54,491 nt of DNA, from NCBI GenBank assembly GCA_031272455.1, contig JAISTS010000068.1, forward strand, positions 1 through 54,491. The letters run 5' to 3'. Below, in pieces: positions 30,312 through 54,304 of the stretch. A model generated the notes under the pieces. The model made no database searches, had not been told where the DNA came from, and was given only the letters and a program-made list of their open reading frames with translations. Both the position numbers and the translations under genes were made by a program. Numbering within the stretch: the stretch's first letter is position 1; every line of letters starts with the position of its first letter. Origin of the DNA: Tannerella sp. Its GTDB lineage: Bacteria; Bacteroidota; Bacteroidia; Bacteroidales; Tannerellaceae.

Positions 30312-31441
30312 GCGAATATAAAATCATCATAAGCGGAGGCGGTACGGGGGGACATATTTTCCCGGCTATTGCCATTGCCGACGCCTTTGTCGAGCGCCAT
30401 CCCGACACGCAAATCCTGTTTGTCGGCGCCGACAACCGTATGGAGATGGAACGTGTGCCGCGAGCCGGATACAAGATAGTCGGACTGCCTGTCAGCGGTT
30501 TCGATCGTCGTCGCCTGCATAAAAATTTCGCCGTCATAATGCGATTTCTCAAAAGTCTGCGCATAGCGAAAAGGATTATCCGCGATTTTGCTCCCGATAT
30601 TGTCGTAGGGACAGGCGGTTATGCCAGCGCACCGACCTTATGGGCAGCCTCGTCGCTCAAAATCCCGACGCTCATTCAGGAACAAAATTCCTACGCCGGA
30701 ATAACCAACAAACTGCTTGCCCGACGCGCATCAACCATCTGCGTGGCTTACGAAGATATGGAAAAGTATTTTCCCGAAAACAAAATCGTCTTCACAGGCA
30801 ATCCTGTACGTAAAGAGCTGGAAAGTTGCCGTATAGACCGGATGAGCGCCATCAGTCATTTCGGACTGAAGCCTTATCTGAAAACGGTTTTAGTCATCGG
30901 TGGCAGTCTTGGCGCCCGCTCGATAAACGACGGGATACGCAACAGACTGAAGCAGCTGGCGGAAGCAAAAGTGCAGGTAATCTGGCAAACGGGCAAAAAC
31001 TATTATGCGAATATCAAACGCGAACTGGAACAGAGCGAGGCTAAGGAGTTTATCTATTGCGCCGATTTCATCGCTGAAATGGAATATGCTTATGCTGCCG
31101 CCGATTTGGTGGTCTCGCGAGCCGGAGCAGGGTCGATTTCCGAACTCTGCCTGCAAGGAAAACCGTCTATCTTAGTGCCCTCGCCCAACGTAGCCGAAGA
31201 CCACCAGACGAAAAATGCCAACGCTGTTGCCGAACATAACGCCGCCATAATGCTCGCCGATAAATACGCCGATATTCATCTGACTGACAGCATTTTGAAG
31301 CACATTCACAACAATTCGTTACTCGAAATGCTGCGCAATAATATCCATAGTATGGGTGTAAGCAAAAGTGCAAAATTGATTGTCAACGAAATGGAAAAAC
31401 TGACGGATAAAACTGTAGATGTATGGATGCAAAAGCAATAA
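30308..31441 (+). CDS. murG: UDP-GlcNAc:undecaprenyl-PP-MurNAc-pentapeptide transferase
   Basis: SGGGTGGHIFPAIAIADA, GTGGYASAPTLWAA, QEQNSYAG, SRAGAGSISELCLQGKPSILVPSPN. Confidence 0.97.
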   Translation: MSEYKIIISGGGTGGHIFPAIAIADAFVERHPDTQILFVGADNRMEMERVPRAGYKIVGLPVSGFDRRRLHKNFAVIMRFLKSLRIAKRIIRDFAPDIVVGTGGYASAPTLWAASSLKIPTLIQEQNSYAGITNKLLARRASTICVAYEDMEKYFPENKIVFTGNPVRKELESCRIDRMSAISHFGLKPYLKTVLVIGGSLGARSINDGIRNRLKQLAEAKVQVIWQTGKNYYANIKRELEQSEAKEFIYCADFIAEMEYAYAAADLVVSRAGAGSISELCLQGKPSILVPSPNVAEDHQTKNANAVAEHNAAIMLADKYADIHLTDSILKHIHNNSLLEMLRNNIHSMGVSKSAKLIVNEMEKLTDKTVDVWMQKQ

Positions 31442-46035: not shown

Positions 46036-47058
46036 ATGAGAAGTTTTGCAAGCGACAACAATTCGGGCGTTCATCCGCTGATAATGGATGCAGTAGTCAG
46101 CGCCAACCTCGACCATTCGGTAGGTTACGGCGACGACCCGTGGACAGTAACCGCCCTGCGTAAGTTAAAAGAGACCTTCGGCGAGACAGCCGAGCCGTTC
46201 ATAGTGTTCAACGGAACGGGCGCCAACTCGGTAGCCCTGCAAGCCGCAGCCCGCTCGTTCAACAGCATAATATGCTCACAGACAGCCCATATCTATGTGG
46301 ATGAATGTGGAGCGCCCGCGCGTCTTACCGGCGCAACAGTGATTGCCGTCCCGACCGCCGACGGCAAACTGACGCCCGACCTCATCCGTCCCCACCTCCA
46401 TAATTTCGGCGTATGCCATCACTCCTGCCCGAAAGCCGTCTATATCTCGCAGGCAAGCGAACTGGGCACGATTTATACCATCGACGAGACGCACGCTATA
46501 GCCGACCTGCTGCATCAATACGATATGTACCTGCACGTTGACGGAGCACGGCTCGCCAACGCCTGCGCCGCCCTCGACTGCACGATGAAAGAACTGACTG
46601 TCGATGCGGGAGTGGACATTTTGAGCTTCGGGGGAACGAAAAACGGGATGATGACGGGCGAAGCAGTCATAGCGTTCCGCCCCGAACTGGCTGAAAACCT
46701 GCACTATTTTCGCAAACAGTCGGCTCAGCTCGCCTCGAAAATGCGCTACCTCTCAGCCCAGTTTATCCCCTACTTGGAGAACGACCTCTGGCTGCAAAAC
46801 GCCGCTCACGCCAACCGTATGGCGGCTAAGCTCGTCGCCATACTGCAACAGTTCCCGCAAGTGAAACTGACGCAAAAACCTGAGACAAACCAGATTTTTT
46901 TCACTATGCCACCGAAGGCAGCCCGCAAGCTGGCAGAGAAATATTTTTTCTATTACTGGAACGAAGACGCCTGCGAAGTGCGGCTTGTAACGTCTTGGGA
47001 TACAACTGACGACGACCTCGCCGGCTTGGAACGGGCGCTGACAGAGGCTATGGCTTGA
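46036..47058 (+). CDS. Low-specificity threonine aldolase / beta-eliminating lyase family
   Basis: MRSFASDNNSGVHPLIMDAV, HVDGARLANACAAL, SFGGTKNGMMTGEAVI (PLP lysine). Confidence 0.92.
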   Translation: MRSFASDNNSGVHPLIMDAVVSANLDHSVGYGDDPWTVTALRKLKETFGETAEPFIVFNGTGANSVALQAAARSFNSIICSQTAHIYVDECGAPARLTGATVIAVPTADGKLTPDLIRPHLHNFGVCHHSCPKAVYISQASELGTIYTIDETHAIADLLHQYDMYLHVDGARLANACAALDCTMKELTVDAGVDILSFGGTKNGMMTGEAVIAFRPELAENLHYFRKQSAQLASKMRYLSAQFIPYLENDLWLQNAAHANRMAAKLVAILQQFPQVKLTQKPETNQIFFTMPPKAARKLAEKYFFYYWNEDACEVRLVTSWDTTDDDLAGLERALTEAMA

Positions 47059-47143
47059 TTTTTCCATTTTTCCGTTAAACCGTTTTTAGAACAAGCAATC
47101 TGACATAGAACACAGATTTTTTTTGTCATTTTGCGCCGTAATT

Positions 47144-47175
47144 TTTGCACATAAAAAAAATGTTGCTTACCTTTG
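47144..47175 (+). promoter_or_regulatory. Promoter TTTG-N20-TACCTTTG for the susC operon
   Basis: TTTG 47144-47147, TACCTTTG 47168-47175, 42 bp before the susC ATG. Confidence 0.65.
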
Positions 47176-47217
47176 ACGGCTGTAATCAACAAATATTAAC
47201 AAGTAATTTCAATTTTT

Positions 47218-50200
47218 ATGATTAAAAATGGTTTATGCAAATGGATTAGCAGAATTTTTATCTGCTTGACAATCACAATGTTATGGGGGGGGGCATTCGC
47301 CCAGACCACGTCGCGCATCAGCGGTACGGTAGTGGACGAAAACGGCGAAACCCTCATAGGAGTCAACGTGGTAGTAGTCGGCACGACGCAGGGAACGGTT
47401 ACCGATATCGACGGTAATTTCTCGCTTCAGGCTGCCGAAGGCGCTACGCTGAGAATATCTATGGTGGGCTTTAAGACGCTCGATGTCAAAGCTCGCACGG
47501 GCGGTATGCGTATCATACTGTCTGAAGACACCGAACTGCTTGAAGAAGTGGTCGTTACCGGTTATGGCGTTACCAAAAAAGCGGCATTTACAGGTTCCGC
47601 ACAGGTGATAGGTAACGACGTGGTAACCAAGAGGATAGATGCCAACGTCCTCAAATCGCTTGAAGGTGCAGTTACGGGTGTACAAGTCAACAATGGCACG
47701 GGACAGCCCGGCGCTTTCGCCTCAACGACCATCCGCGGTATAGGCTCGGCAAACTCCGGTACGGAGCCTCTGTTCGTCATCGACGGCATACCTATCTTCA
47801 CCGATAAGGTTGGCGGCTGGACAGATATGGAAGTCAGCCCTATGGCAAACATCAATCCGAATGACATTGAGAGCATTACGGTGCTGAAAGACGCAACGGC
47901 AACGGCAATTTACGGCGCCCGCGCAGCTAACGGCGTAATCGTCATCTCGACAAAGAAAGGTAAAGCTGGCAAGACACGCTTCAACTTCAGCGCAAAATAC
48001 GGCAAGACGTTTATCGCGCACGTACAGCCCGGCTATCGCATGGTAGGACTGGACAAGTACAAGGAGATCTGGACCGAAGGCTATATAAATTCGGGCGATG
48101 CCGAGACAAGAGAAGAAGCCTACGCCCTGCTGAAAGAAAATGCGCTCAACTGGTACGACACCGATATCGACGCCGTACCGAGCGTTGACTGGCTCGAGCT
48201 TGCTATGCAAACCGGTCGCGTACAGGAATATAACATCGACCTGCAAGGCGGCGGCGAGAACGAACGCCACTACGTCAGCCTCGGTTATTTCGAGAATCAA
48301 GGCTCGCTGATAGGTTCGGGTATGAAACGCTATACCGGACGCCTCAATCTCGAAGGCGAGTCGGGACGTATCGGATACGGCATCTCTATCAATGCGGGAT
48401 TTTCCGATATCGACAATATCCCGAACAACAGCTCATATACGCATCCTATCGTGATGGTTTACGACAGCCGCCCGTTTGAACAGCCCATCCTGCCCGACGG
48501 CACCTACGGAATGTATCAAATCGGCTCGTACAATCTCGTTGCTCTGTACGACAAGGAAAAGGGCGACATCAAAAATCAAAAAAGCACGTCGGCGGTTATC
48601 AATCCGTTCTTCACCTACCGGATAGGTAAGGATTTTCTCTGGAAAACGAATGCGGGATTGAGCATCTTCGACCTGAACGAGTTCTATTACTACGGACCGT
48701 ACAGTCCCGAATACGGACAAAACGGTATGAACGGCGAGAAAGTGTTGAACCGCTCGACTATCTACAACATTACCAACACATTGAGCTATAATCACACCTT
48801 CAATTCGGTGCATACGCTGAATGCTATGCTGGGACAGGAGGCGCAACGCTCGTCGCTGACAGGCGTCAAAGCCGAAGCCACCAATTATCCCTCCGACGCC
48901 GTGATTGAGCTTGTCAACGCCTCGACACCCAAAAACGCCGAGTCAACCAGCCGCGCAAGTACGCTGGCATCGTTCTTCTTCAATGGCGAATACGACTACA
49001 GCAGTAAATATTATTTCTCGACATCGTTCCGCTACGACGCATCCTCGCGCTTCGGTACGAACAACCGCTGGGCGCCCTTCTGGTCGGTCGGCGGTAAATA
49101 CCGTATCTCGCAGGAAGAAGCTTTTCAAAGTACAAAGAGCTGGCTGTCAGACCTTACCGTTCGCGCAAGCTACGGTACGGTAGGTAATCAGGATATTTTC
49201 AGCTCGTATTATCCTTATCTTGGACTGTATAAGTTCGGATATCCATACAACTCCAATCCGGGAGCACGTCCGACGCAGATCTATTCGCCCGACCTGAAAT
49301 GGGAAACGGTCAAGAAATTCGACGTCGGTTTGAACGCCGTCCTTTTCGACCGCCTCTCGCTCGAATTTGACTTCTACAACCAGCGCACTACGGATATGAT
49401 TTTCGAGGTACCCCTGTCGCTGACTACCGGCTATTCCAATGTGCTTCAGAACATTGGCGAAATGGAAAATCAGGGCATTGAGTTTATGGTCAACCTCGCT
49501 GCCGTCAAGACCAAAGATTTCTCTTGGGACATCCGTCTGAACGGCACTGCCAACCGCAACAAAATCGTCGCTCTGGCTACCGACAAACCTATCGAAGGCA
49601 CGTGGTACATACGCAAGGTCGGACTGCCCTACAACACGTTCTATCTGCAGAAATTTGCAGGCGTTGACACGGAGACAGGTCAAGCGCTGTTCTATGTTGA
49701 CGAGACCTGTACGACGACGACAACCAGCATCAACGAAGCCAAACAGCAGAATGTAGGCTCGGCTGACCCGAAATTCTACGGCGGTATAGGCACATCGTTC
49801 GCTTACAAAGGTTTCGACCTCTCGCTCGACGGCTCGTTCTCGCTCGGCGGACACGTCTTTAACTCCGGCGCACGCTACGACCTGATGGCTGGACACTACG
49901 AACTCGGTCCCGTTGCCGAATATGTTTACGAACACCGCTGGAAACAGCCGGGCGATGTTACCGACATCCCGAAGTTTATAGCCGGCGGCAACAGCGATTT
50001 CGGCAAACGCCATTCGCGCTTCGTTTACAGCTCGTCGCACTTCCGTATGAAAGCAGTTAATTTCGGCTATACGATACCGAAAAGCCTAAGCAAAGCTCTC
50101 ACCATCGACAATCTGAGAGTGTTCCTGACAGCCGATAACCTGTTTATCATCACGGCAAAAGATTTTCAGGGCTTCGACCCGCAAGCTACATCAGACGGCT

Positions 50201-50262
50201 ATCAGCAATGGACTTATCCCATCCCGACAACCGTTCTGTTCGGATTAAATATTTCATTTTAA
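47218..50262 (+). CDS. SusC/RagA-family TonB-dependent outer membrane transporter
   Basis: SGTVVDENGETLIGVNVVVVGTTQGTVTDIDGNF; EEVVVTGYG; IRGIGSANSGTEPLFVIDGIPI; YGARAANGVIVISTKKGK. Confidence 0.97.
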   Translation: MIKNGLCKWISRIFICLTITMLWGGAFAQTTSRISGTVVDENGETLIGVNVVVVGTTQGTVTDIDGNFSLQAAEGATLRISMVGFKTLDVKARTGGMRIILSEDTELLEEVVVTGYGVTKKAAFTGSAQVIGNDVVTKRIDANVLKSLEGAVTGVQVNNGTGQPGAFASTTIRGIGSANSGTEPLFVIDGIPIFTDKVGGWTDMEVSPMANINPNDIESITVLKDATATAIYGARAANGVIVISTKKGKAGKTRFNFSAKYGKTFIAHVQPGYRMVGLDKYKEIWTEGYINSGDAETREEAYALLKENALNWYDTDIDAVPSVDWLELAMQTGRVQEYNIDLQGGGENERHYVSLGYFENQGSLIGSGMKRYTGRLNLEGESGRIGYGISINAGFSDIDNIPNNSSYTHPIVMVYDSRPFEQPILPDGTYGMYQIGSYNLVALYDKEKGDIKNQKSTSAVINPFFTYRIGKDFLWKTNAGLSIFDLNEFYYYGPYSPEYGQNGMNGEKVLNRSTIYNITNTLSYNHTFNSVHTLNAMLGQEAQRSSLTGVKAEATNYPSDAVIELVNASTPKNAESTSRASTLASFFFNGEYDYSSKYYFSTSFRYDASSRFGTNNRWAPFWSVGGKYRISQEEAFQSTKSWLSDLTVRASYGTVGNQDIFSSYYPYLGLYKFGYPYNSNPGARPTQIYSPDLKWETVKKFDVGLNAVLFDRLSLEFDFYNQRTTDMIFEVPLSLTTGYSNVLQNIGEMENQGIEFMVNLAAVKTKDFSWDIRLNGTANRNKIVALATDKPIEGTWYIRKVGLPYNTFYLQKFAGVDTETGQALFYVDETCTTTTTSINEAKQQNVGSADPKFYGGIGTSFAYKGFDLSLDGSFSLGGHVFNSGARYDLMAGHYELGPVAEYVYEHRWKQPGDVTDIPKFIAGGNSDFGKRHSRFVYSSSHFRMKAVNFGYTIPKSLSKALTIDNLRVFLTADNLFIITAKDFQGFDPQATSDGYQQWTYPIPTTVLFGLNISF
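47285..47293 (+). repeat. Poly-G tract (G9) inside susC signal-peptide coding region
   Basis: ...TTATGGGGGGGGGCATTCGCC... Confidence 0.9.
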
Positions 50263-50306
50263 CACTTTAAGATATGAAACGTATAATAAATAAAACAGTA
50301 TCCGAT

Positions 50307-51701
50307 ATGAAAAAAATATATATCCTCTTAATCGCTCTGACAGGATTGACATTCGCCGCTTGCGACGACTTCCTGACCGAGCTGCCGACCGACTCTGTCG
50401 CCGACGACGTGGCGTTCAACGCGGCAACAGACTACTCGAACAACCTCAACGGTTTGTACAATGCCTTTGGCTCCTATGCGTTCTACGGACGTAATATCGT
50501 CTGCCTCGGCGATGCCGCCAGCGATGTCGCCTATCACGACAACAAATCCGGTAACTTTCAGGTGATGTCGATGTGGCAAATCACCGACACCGAGTCGGAA
50601 ATGCGCTCTATGTGGGAATATGGCTACAAAGTTATCAACGGCGCCGCCAAAATCATCAAAGCCAGCCAGGAAGCCGATTTCCCCGAATCCGAAATGCTGA
50701 TTGTTTATAAGGCAGTAGCACAGGCGTATGGTCTCAAAGCCGCCGCCGCCTTCGCGCTGACGAATATGTTTGCCCTGCCCTACAGCGAATCGACAAAAAG
50801 CTCGCTCGGCATAGTAAATGTTGACGACCCGATTGAAGCATTTCAGGAAATCAGCCGTAATACGCTTGAGCAGAATTACGAAATGATACTCTCCGACATC
50901 GCCAAAGCAAAAGAATATTTTGCAAAACCCGATGTGGACAATCCGGGCTATGCCTACATCAATCCCGTAGCTCTCGACGCGCTCGAAGCCAAGGTCAAAC
51001 TCTATCGCAAAGACTATGCAGGCGCCATCACGGCAGCTACAGCAGCTATCAATGCACGCGGAGGCAGCCTTACGACTACTTCCGACGACTATGCGGCGAT
51101 GTATCTTAACAACACGATCAATTCGGAAGATATCTTTGTCGTCGTCAAATCGGCTACCGACAACCCCGGCGCCGCTTCGCTCGGCACTATGTATCCGTTC
51201 TACGGACTGCATATCGAAGATGCTGTGCTGGCTGAATATTCCGAAACCGACATACGTATCGACCTGCTCACGGCAACCGGCAATCACGGCAAATACGCAG
51301 GTACGAGCGAAGGCTCCGACGCTCACAATATCCCCGTGCTGCGACTGCCCGAACTCTATCTGACATTGGCAGAGTCTTATGCTTACCAGAGCAATTACAA
51401 GTCGGCGAAAGAAAATCTCGTTACGCTGCTCTCGGCACGCGATCCCGAATTTGACGCTTCGTCAGTGAAAGAAGATGCGTCTATCATACCGATAATCCAG
51501 AATGCACGCAAGCTCGAACTCGTGCAGGAAGGTCATCGCCTGTTCGACGCTCGCCGCTGGGGACTGAAAATCGACGTCGTACACGGACGGTACAAGAACT
51601 TCGACCCGTCGCTGTTCTGCTATCCTATCCCGCAATACGAGATCAACGCCGGATTCGGTGTCGAACAGACCGCAGGTTGGGAACAATACTTACCTAAATA
51701 A
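50307..51701 (+). CDS. SusD/RagB-family outer membrane lipoprotein
   Basis: MKKIYILLIALTGLTFAACDDFLTELPTDSV; NNLNGLYNAF; RKLELVQEGHRLFDARRWG. Confidence 0.95.
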   Translation: MKKIYILLIALTGLTFAACDDFLTELPTDSVADDVAFNAATDYSNNLNGLYNAFGSYAFYGRNIVCLGDAASDVAYHDNKSGNFQVMSMWQITDTESEMRSMWEYGYKVINGAAKIIKASQEADFPESEMLIVYKAVAQAYGLKAAAAFALTNMFALPYSESTKSSLGIVNVDDPIEAFQEISRNTLEQNYEMILSDIAKAKEYFAKPDVDNPGYAYINPVALDALEAKVKLYRKDYAGAITAATAAINARGGSLTTTSDDYAAMYLNNTINSEDIFVVVKSATDNPGAASLGTMYPFYGLHIEDAVLAEYSETDIRIDLLTATGNHGKYAGTSEGSDAHNIPVLRLPELYLTLAESYAYQSNYKSAKENLVTLLSARDPEFDASSVKEDASIIPIIQNARKLELVQEGHRLFDARRWGLKIDVVHGRYKNFDPSLFCYPIPQYEINAGFGVEQTAGWEQYLPK

Positions 51702-51712
51702 ATTCATTGTAA

Positions 51713-54304
51713 ATGAGACCAAACGTATCATCAAAAATCATCGCAGCGGCGGCAGGGCTTATTCTTGTCGCCGCTACCGCCGGCGCGCAGCCTAAACCCG
51801 TAGCTTTCGATACCGAGCTGTCGTACTATATGCCGAAAGAGTGGAAATACACCCTGAAGCAGGATGTCCCGACACCGAAAGCGGCGCTGGGCTTCGAGCT
51901 TGGCGAACAGCACGTCGAATGGCTGCAGGTCGTCGATTATATGAAGACGCTTGCCGCCGTATCGCCGCGTATCACCGTCAAGGAATACGGACGCACTTTC
52001 GAGCAGCGCCCGTTTATCTGCGTAACCATCACCTCGCCTAAGAACCAGCAGAATATCGACGCGCTTAAAACTGCGCACGCTTCGCTGGCTGACCCCGAAG
52101 CCTCGTCGAAGCTCGACCTCAAGACGCTGCCCGCCGTCGCTAACCTGATGTTCAGCATCCACGGCAACGAAGCATCGGGCGTGAACTCCTCCATCGGCTT
52201 TGTCTATTTCTTTGCAGCCGCCGAAGGTGCGGAAATCGACGAGCTGCTCGACAAAGTGATCATCAACGTCATCCCCGGTCAGAACCCCGACGGCATCACC
52301 CGCTTCGCGACATGGGCTAACAGCAACAAAAGCCGTCCCGACGTCTCCGACCCTATGACGCGCGAACTGAACGAGCCATGGCCCGGCGGACGTACCAACC
52401 ACTACTGGCACGATATGAACCGCGACTGGATACCCGTCCAAATGCCCGAAATGAAGTGCATAATGAAGATCTATCAGGAATGGATGCCCAATACCGTAGG
52501 CGATTTCCACGAGATGGGCAGCAGCACGACCTTCTTCCTCGAACCGTCCGACCCCGTTTGCTACTATCCCTTCATCCCCGAAGAGAACAAGCAACTGACG
52601 GCGCAGGTGTCGAACTACAATATGAAGGCTCTCGACCGCATAGGCTCGCTCTATCTCTCGAAAGATATGTTCGACAGCTACTACCTCGGCACGGGCGATG
52701 TCTATGGCGATGCGCTCGGCTCAATAGCTATGCTGTTTGAACAGGCTACCTCGCGCGGAAACATACAGAAGACCGACAACGGACTGCTCAAGTTCCCGTT
52801 CACCATACGCAACCAGATAACCTGCGCATTCGGCACCGTGAAGGCATCGTACGAGATGCGCGAGACGCTCAACGACTATATGCGCCGCTTCTGCAACGAC
52901 CGCTATAAAGAAGCAGGCGCCGTGCCCGAAAAAGCTTACGTATTCGACGGCAACGGCTCCGAAGCTATCAGTTTCCATTTCATCGAACTGCTTCAGGCTC
53001 ACGGCATCAGCGTATCGAAACTTGCAAAAAATATCACCCTCGACGGACACGAATATGCAAAAGAAAATGCCTATATCGTGCCCGTACAGCAACGCAACTC
53101 TATGATACTGCGCTCGCTGTTCGAGAGCACTAAGACGTTCAAAGACAGTCTGTTTTACGACGTTTCGACATGGAATATGGCAGAAGCGTTCAACCTCAAC
53201 TGTGCACCCGTAAAAACAGCCCTGAGCGGACTGACGGGCGAGGTCGTCGTCAAACCCGAATTTAAGAAAGGCGTCGTCAAAGGCGGACAGAGCGATTACG
53301 CCTACCTCTTCGACAATCGCGAATACTATGCGCCGCTGTTTGTCAAATCGCTGCAGGAAGCCGGACTGATGGTCAAGGCTTCGGGACGCGGAGCTAAATC
53401 AGCCGACGGCACAGTATCGTACGGACCGGGTATGTTTGTCCTGCCCGTCGCCAACCAGAAACTGAGCGCAAAGGATATCTACGACAAGGTAGTGAAACTG
53501 TCGGAAGAGACGGGCGTCAATGTGCAGTCGATACCCTACGGACAGATGACCGACTTCGACCTCGGACACGACGCGACGCTGACCCTCAAAGAGCCGAAAG
53601 TGGCGCTGCTGACCGGACAGGCATTGAGCACCGGCGAAGTTGGCTCGATATGGCTGCTGCTTAACTATCGCTTCCGTATGAAACCCACGCTCATCGACCC
53701 CGCGTCGATTATGCGTGCCAACCTCAACGAATACAATGTCATCATCATACCGTCGGGACGCGGAGTGCCTGTTACCGGCGCCGCCGGAACGAAACTCGCC
53801 GACTGGGTACGTGCCGGAGGAACGCTTATCGCTACAGGCGCTTCGTGGCGCGTAATAAATGACCTCAAGCTTGCCGAACTGAAAGAAAAGAAACTCTTTC
53901 ACGCCGACTCCGCCGTCTATGTCGCCTACAACCAACGCGCCGACCGCGCAGCGATGTACGACATCCCCGGCTCACATCTGCGAGTGCGTATCGACCCGAC
54001 ACACCCGCTCGCATGGGGATATACAAAATCGACTTTGCCCGTTGTGAAAGCCAATACGATAGCGTTCGAGATGCCAAAAGAAGCTAACCTCGCACCCATC
54101 GTGTATGACAAAAACCCGCAACTGTCGGGCTTCCTCCGCAAAGAACACAGCAAAGAACTCGAAGATACGCCCGCAGCATTGTGCGGTCGCGTCGGCAGCG
54201 GACATTTTATCTATTTCGCCGACGACCTCACCTTCCGCTCATACTGGTATGGCGGTGTACGTATGTTTATGAATGCTGTTTTCTTCGGACAAGTAATAAG
54301 ATAA
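51713..54304 (+). CDS. Secreted M14-family zinc carboxypeptidase-like protein with C-terminal GATase1-like domain
   Basis: Signal peptide; FSIHGNEASGVNSSIG (HxxE), DMNRDWIP, GDFHEMGSSTTFFLEP; C-terminal VALLTGQAL...YNVIIIPSGRG...LADWVRAGGTLIATG. Confidence 0.9.
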   Translation: MRPNVSSKIIAAAAGLILVAATAGAQPKPVAFDTELSYYMPKEWKYTLKQDVPTPKAALGFELGEQHVEWLQVVDYMKTLAAVSPRITVKEYGRTFEQRPFICVTITSPKNQQNIDALKTAHASLADPEASSKLDLKTLPAVANLMFSIHGNEASGVNSSIGFVYFFAAAEGAEIDELLDKVIINVIPGQNPDGITRFATWANSNKSRPDVSDPMTRELNEPWPGGRTNHYWHDMNRDWIPVQMPEMKCIMKIYQEWMPNTVGDFHEMGSSTTFFLEPSDPVCYYPFIPEENKQLTAQVSNYNMKALDRIGSLYLSKDMFDSYYLGTGDVYGDALGSIAMLFEQATSRGNIQKTDNGLLKFPFTIRNQITCAFGTVKASYEMRETLNDYMRRFCNDRYKEAGAVPEKAYVFDGNGSEAISFHFIELLQAHGISVSKLAKNITLDGHEYAKENAYIVPVQQRNSMILRSLFESTKTFKDSLFYDVSTWNMAEAFNLNCAPVKTALSGLTGEVVVKPEFKKGVVKGGQSDYAYLFDNREYYAPLFVKSLQEAGLMVKASGRGAKSADGTVSYGPGMFVLPVANQKLSAKDIYDKVVKLSEETGVNVQSIPYGQMTDFDLGHDATLTLKEPKVALLTGQALSTGEVGSIWLLLNYRFRMKPTLIDPASIMRANLNEYNVIIIPSGRGVPVTGAAGTKLADWVRAGGTLIATGASWRVINDLKLAELKEKKLFHADSAVYVAYNQRADRAAMYDIPGSHLRVRIDPTHPLAWGYTKSTLPVVKANTIAFEMPKEANLAPIVYDKNPQLSGFLRKEHSKELEDTPAALCGRVGSGHFIYFADDLTFRSYWYGGVRMFMNAVFFGQVIR

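Follow-up and report, generated by a model that had tools for sequence, protein, structure and literature searches.

An uninterrupted run of nine guanines (G9) in the signal-peptide coding region of a SusC/RagA-type receptor gene is, judging from sequence comparison, likely to belong to a set of poly-G contingency loci, spread across the genus, by which SusC-type receptors are turned ON and OFF. The tract lies in what we call the window, the whole stretch of DNA analysed (54,491 nucleotides of a Tannerella sp. contig), where it covers codons 23-26 of the ORF at 47218-50262 and is read TTA TGG GGG GGG GCA; position and frame are as described in the first-pass annotation of this DNA. That annotation had also noticed nothing comparable in the rest of the window, and indeed the G9 is its longest run of G or C, with a G6 at 30346 as runner-up and only 0.023 G runs of at least nine expected per window under a first-order Markov model. 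The 20 further runs of at least eight found elsewhere in the genome change the interpretation of the G9 as the window's sole long run, and it is because the tract exposes a system that we consider it more interesting than was first held.

The product of the host gene scores 792.7 bits against TIGR04056 (cut-off 368) and 62.8 bits against TIGR04057, contains the Pfam domains CarbopepD_reg_2 (PF13715) and Plug (PF07715), and is encoded next to a SusD-like gene, so that profile score, domain content and neighbourhood all place it in the SusC/RagA family (Table 1). The SusD-like gene and the M14 zinc carboxypeptidase-like gene that follow it likely belong to the same operon; the SusC-SusD order is kept in orthologous loci, and that of the M14 gene in L081, L083, L084 and L086. 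Upstream, the TTTG and TACCTTTG elements are what we take to be a promoter by the Bacteroidota -33/-7 consensus, and a TANCTTTG box is found at about equal distance in all five close orthologues. As the G9 lies within the coding sequence, some 110 nt past the candidate -7 box, it would act on translation and not on promoter spacing, which rules out a promoter-spacer tract in the window. An invertible promoter, or a Bacteroides-type invertible-DNA switch, was likewise rejected, as no inverted repeat pair of at least 12 nt surrounds the promoter and start codon in 46900-47700.

Table 1. Coordinates of the SusC locus, its poly-G tract and the neighbouring genes in the window.
Feature	Position	Strand	Basis and remarks
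Candidate promoter (TTTG 47144-47147, TACCTTTG 47168-47175)	47144..47175	+	sequence
SusC/RagA TonB-linked outer-membrane receptor, 1014 aa, in frame (ON) at G9	47218..50262	+	TIGR04056, TIGR04057, Pfam
Putative signal peptide MIKNGLCKWISRIFICLTITMLWGGAFAQ, containing the tract	47218..47304	+	translation; cleavage site presumed
G9 tract (site A), signal-peptide coding region	47285..47293	+	sequence; candidate slippage switch
TAG ending the -1 reading frame (37 aa product)	47330..47332	+	computed frame
TAA ending the +1 reading frame (66 aa product)	47415..47417	+	computed frame
SusD-like lipoprotein	50274..51701	+	Pfam SusD_RagB, SusD-like_3; 11 nt after SusC
M14 zinc carboxypeptidase-like protein	51713..54304	+	Pfam Peptidase_M14; 11 nt after SusD

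The G9 is a mononucleotide tract far above chance expectation at which a one-base change would halt expression: the loss of one G yields MIKNGLCKWISRIFICLTITMLWGGHSPRPRRASAVR followed by a stop after 37 residues, just as the first-pass annotation had it, and the gain of one G, for which an early stop had been claimed in general terms, gives a computed product of 66 residues. In the mechanism that we propose, slipped-strand mispairing during replication would add one G to the run or remove one from it, presumably at a useful rate in living cells. With nine Gs (or six, or twelve) the SusC frame would be open and the receptor exported; with eight or ten, translation would stop within 37-66 residues, leaving a peptide that lacks the plug and the barrel, and no receptor. 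The downstream susD and M14 genes may also drop in this OFF state through polarity.

The genome that holds the window is a 2.75 Mb draft in 139 contigs, 85.5% complete, and contains 21 G/C runs of at least eight, 15 of which reach at least nine (7 on the forward and 8 on the reverse strand). Counting both strands, a Markov model expects about 2.4 runs of this length, and the excess grows with length, from 9 observed against 0.47 expected for runs of at least 10 to 5 against 0.02 for those of at least 12. The runs are enriched in surface-exposed functions: SusC ORFs account for about 4% of the genome but contain 8 of the 15 (binomial p = 3e-8), and in these SusC-borne runs the G is always on the sense strand. 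When the codons of 30 SusC ORFs were shuffled synonymously, 0.004 sense-strand runs of at least nine were expected, against 4 observed in open frames. Three long tracts of this genome lie outside SusC genes (G14 at L036:218-231, G14 at L044:5001-5014 and G10 at L042:1731-1740); they are located within or next to short ORFs of unknown function, and the G10 precedes, by about 110 nt, a gene for a reprolysin-like/BspA-repeat protein.

Within the SusC genes, the tracts occupy two sites. One, site A, is in the signal peptide, where the G9 of the window is joined by a G11 (L048) and a G8 (L049) in two neighbouring paralogues on contig C130, all of them in frame. Site B, which holds most SusC tracts of this genome, lies where the CarboxypepD-regulatory-like domain ends and immediately precedes the conserved LLED...VVVGYG (TonB-box) region; the tract there is followed by a TAA, so that a wrong frame terminates at once. 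Two of these site-B tracts are ON (L033 and L045, both G9) and four OFF (L038 and L040 with G9, L046 and L050 with G13). A search with TIGR04056 independently recovered four split SusC genes among about 35, whose two parts match profile positions 2-61 and 63/64/65-981; in all four the split point is a G9 or G13 tract, and among the same ~35 genes we found no full-length SusC broken anywhere but at a tract.

The site-B DNA pattern matches in 20 of the 41 genomes of the genus, a reversed control pattern in none. Scored by flanking protein anchors, site-B tracts of at least nine are ON in 13 cases and OFF in 23, with 11 ON and 7 OFF at G9 and 2 ON and 16 OFF at G10-G15, where the longest (G13-G15) could be mis-sized by assembly, as could the G22 of L292, which was left out of the scoring. 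Tracts of up to eight are ON in 8 cases and OFF in one, L250, a compound G10-T-G3 tract that is therefore grouped with the long ones; the relation between length and state gives a Fisher p of 0.007 as computed and of about 0.001 with L250 reassigned. Both length and state vary between close relatives whose ORF is otherwise intact. In one orthologue group, L256 carries a G9 and is ON, and L282 (G11, 95% identical), L050 (G13, 90%) and L252 (G15, 90%) are OFF; in another, L273 is ON with G9 and L262 OFF with G14 at 92% identity; and in a third, with identities of 87-94%, L253 (G9) and L263 (G10) are ON and L276 (G9) is OFF. The dN/dS of OFF/OFF pairs is 0.03-0.11, which indicates that the OFF genes are preserved by purifying selection; with the absence of other lesions, this rules out that they are decaying pseudogenes.

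By the same pattern, the device looks restricted in its spread: in 393 Bacteroidales genomes, the site-B pattern recovered only the genome of the window and one false match (L301, not a SusC), although, being tuned to the genus, it could miss divergent versions elsewhere. Within the genus, the tracts from four other genomes (G013, G025, G026 and G030) are mostly intergenic, with none in a SusC gene recognisable by blastp, and a narrow signal-peptide pattern, which misses even the window tract, matched L277 and L295, neither of them an obvious SusC.

The window tract itself was compared with five orthologues (L081, L082, L083, L085 and L086) from metagenome-assembled genomes (MAGs) deposited as Tannerella sp., in which the gene is 71-74% identical; the isolate codes of these nearest records resemble, as we take it, those of termite-gut metagenome projects. 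All six sequences carry TTA TGG GGG GGG GC (TTATGGGGGGGGGC) without a single nucleotide change and thus exactly nine Gs, in frame (ON). The first-pass annotation had named Trp-Gly-Gly with interrupted codons in relatives as evidence against a switch, and we found none, GGG GGG being present in 5 of 5 close Tannerella-labelled homologues. The run is absent from the sister sequence L084 (66% identical) and from distant homologues.

One could read the run as the mere outcome of a constraint on the protein, a Trp-Gly-Gly in the signal peptide, combined with codon choice, and it is true that LWGGA is kept in the orthologues, as the sole conserved block of signal peptides that otherwise diverge. Yet GGG is the rarest glycine codon of the window (8%), GGGGGG encodes only 1 of its 101 Gly-Gly pairs, and of 469 invariant degenerate codons just 115 are the same in every one of the six sequences. 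Among the 64 invariant glycine columns, GGG is used throughout in two, those of the tract, and the other 62 are never GGG in all six. This invariance at the codon level amid synonymous divergence implies that the G run itself is conserved. Given, in addition, the synonymous shuffles described above and the lack of the motif in L084, we regard this explanation as highly improbable; as a sole cause, protein and codon constraint is ruled out by codon usage and shuffling.

Another reading is that the window tract has been retained but is locked ON, slipping rarely and with OFF variants purged, a hot spot in an important receptor, with the true switches being the site-B tracts elsewhere. The uniform G9 in frame of the six orthologues, unlike the variable site-B tracts of at least nine, of which only 13 of 36 are ON, counts against our preferred reading and in favour of this one. 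A G9 is also at the short end of the lengths that are OFF anywhere, and MutS (871 aa) and MutL (636 aa) are encoded as open frames in the same genome; with mismatch repair intact, which rules out a mutator through its loss, slippage is expected at a moderate rate and should be held down at a G9. The invariance of GGG GGG amid strong synonymous divergence is, however, hard to explain if the tract were a pure cost, as GGC would keep the protein; site-B tracts of the same length are OFF in 7 of 18 cases, and selection for ON in dominant strains would look alike. A locked tract seems to us unlikely. An artefact of assembly or sequencing, through miscounted homopolymers or poly-G read artefacts, is the least credible explanation of all: all but one of the 41 genus genomes searched are drafts broken into 110-580 contigs, which record one consensus length each, and L292 looks chimeric, but six independent assemblies agree on the tract and on its codon, tracts at homologous codons occur in 20 genomes, and many of the OFF calls are at G9, a length that short reads size well. 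In L292 (G031:C288), the G22 stands directly beside a C-rich run at the site-B tract and is probably an assembly chimera.

Poly-G switching of the SusC genes thus has to be graded by level. For the system as a whole, slipped-strand ON/OFF switching is strongly supported by the comparisons, because the runs are enriched, paralogues share their sites, OFF alleles are broken at tracts only, and orthologues differ in length and state. The earlier proposal that the G9 is an ON/OFF switch for the transporter accordingly stands as to the kind of mechanism, on the strength of the enrichment and the site-B variation, and falls short for this particular tract, where six of six orthologues are G9 in frame. 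Switching by the window's own tract is still probable; the tract may switch slowly under selection that mostly favours ON, or it may be a hot spot that has been kept but is rarely of consequence. As many SusC paralogues carry the site-B device, the cells of one population would show differing receptor combinations. More broadly, and with somewhat less assurance than for the G9 as a contingency locus, we lean towards combinatorial poly-G frame switching at the signal peptide and the linker before the TonB box, under intact mismatch repair, as controlling a large part of the SusC repertoire of the genus, so that the set of nutrient or phage receptors would differ from cell to cell.

The closest parallel in an outer-membrane receptor is offered by the haemoglobin receptors HmbR and HpuAB of Neisseria meningitidis, which are phase-variable through poly-G tracts (PMC3786947). 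There as here, the tract lies in the receptor ORF, a frameshift turns the gene OFF, and ON and OFF alleles coexist among strains. Unlike those receptors, ours belong to another phylum and to the SusC/RagA family with its SusD partners, with many paralogues sharing two tract sites (the signal peptide and the region before the TonB box), and switching has been measured in Neisseria and is deduced here from the sequences. Genome-wide poly-G/C phasomes are described for Campylobacter and Helicobacter (PMC6321876, PMC2823697). They resemble the present case in having many poly-G contingency loci, with ON and OFF states mixed within one genome. The difference lies in the targets, which are SusC receptors here and mainly surface-sugar genes in Campylobacter, and in MutS and MutL, which are intact here.

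To our knowledge, nearly all phase variation described in Bacteroidales works by DNA inversion, and in the open-licence literature we came across no account of SusC genes switched by poly-G tracts in this order. In Bacteroides fragilis, phase variation of SusC/SusD proceeds through a DNA invertase (Nakayama-Imaohji 2009, as cited in PMC11868660). Like the case proposed here, it concerns Bacteroidales receptors of the SusC/SusD family that go ON and OFF at random. It differs in that a site-specific invertase flips a segment in B. fragilis, in contrast to the coding-sequence frameshift proposed here, where 46900-47700 holds no inverted repeat of at least 12 nt. Among the Flavobacteriia, FSD genes of Ornithobacterium hominis are reported to have a putative phase-variation mechanism (PMC13183296).

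If the proposed switching is real, it would do by slippage, for the same protein family, what DNA inversion does in human-gut Bacteroides, and a second classic device, poly-G slippage, would have been recruited in Bacteroidales as well. The receptors concerned decide which polymers can be imported and possibly which phages can attack. Annotation pipelines would then label OFF SusC genes as pseudogenes, and metagenome assemblies of the genus would hide variation in nutrient uptake within populations.

Poly-G runs also occur in other contexts. An intergenic element, TTAA..AAC-G(8-12)-TA, recurs in the genome of the window (L032:439-446, L034:1848-1859, L037:2933-2942 and L039:5001-5010) and is found too at L200, L217, L218, L221, L224, L225, L229, L230 and L240, in species that yielded no site-B tract within SusC genes. 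The L039 copy lies 44 nt upstream of a SusC start and is the only one with a TAnnTTTG box nearby (13 nt downstream), and the L032 copy precedes, by about 150 nt, an ECF sigma factor gene that adjoins a SusC gene. Within the genus, G031 has by far the most runs of the set, with 63 G/C runs of at least nine and complete matches to MutS and MutL. Finally, G044, a complete 2.2 Mb genome from another family of Bacteroidales, contains 17 G/C runs of at least nine, 14 of them on one listed strand, and may represent an independent poly-G-rich lineage.
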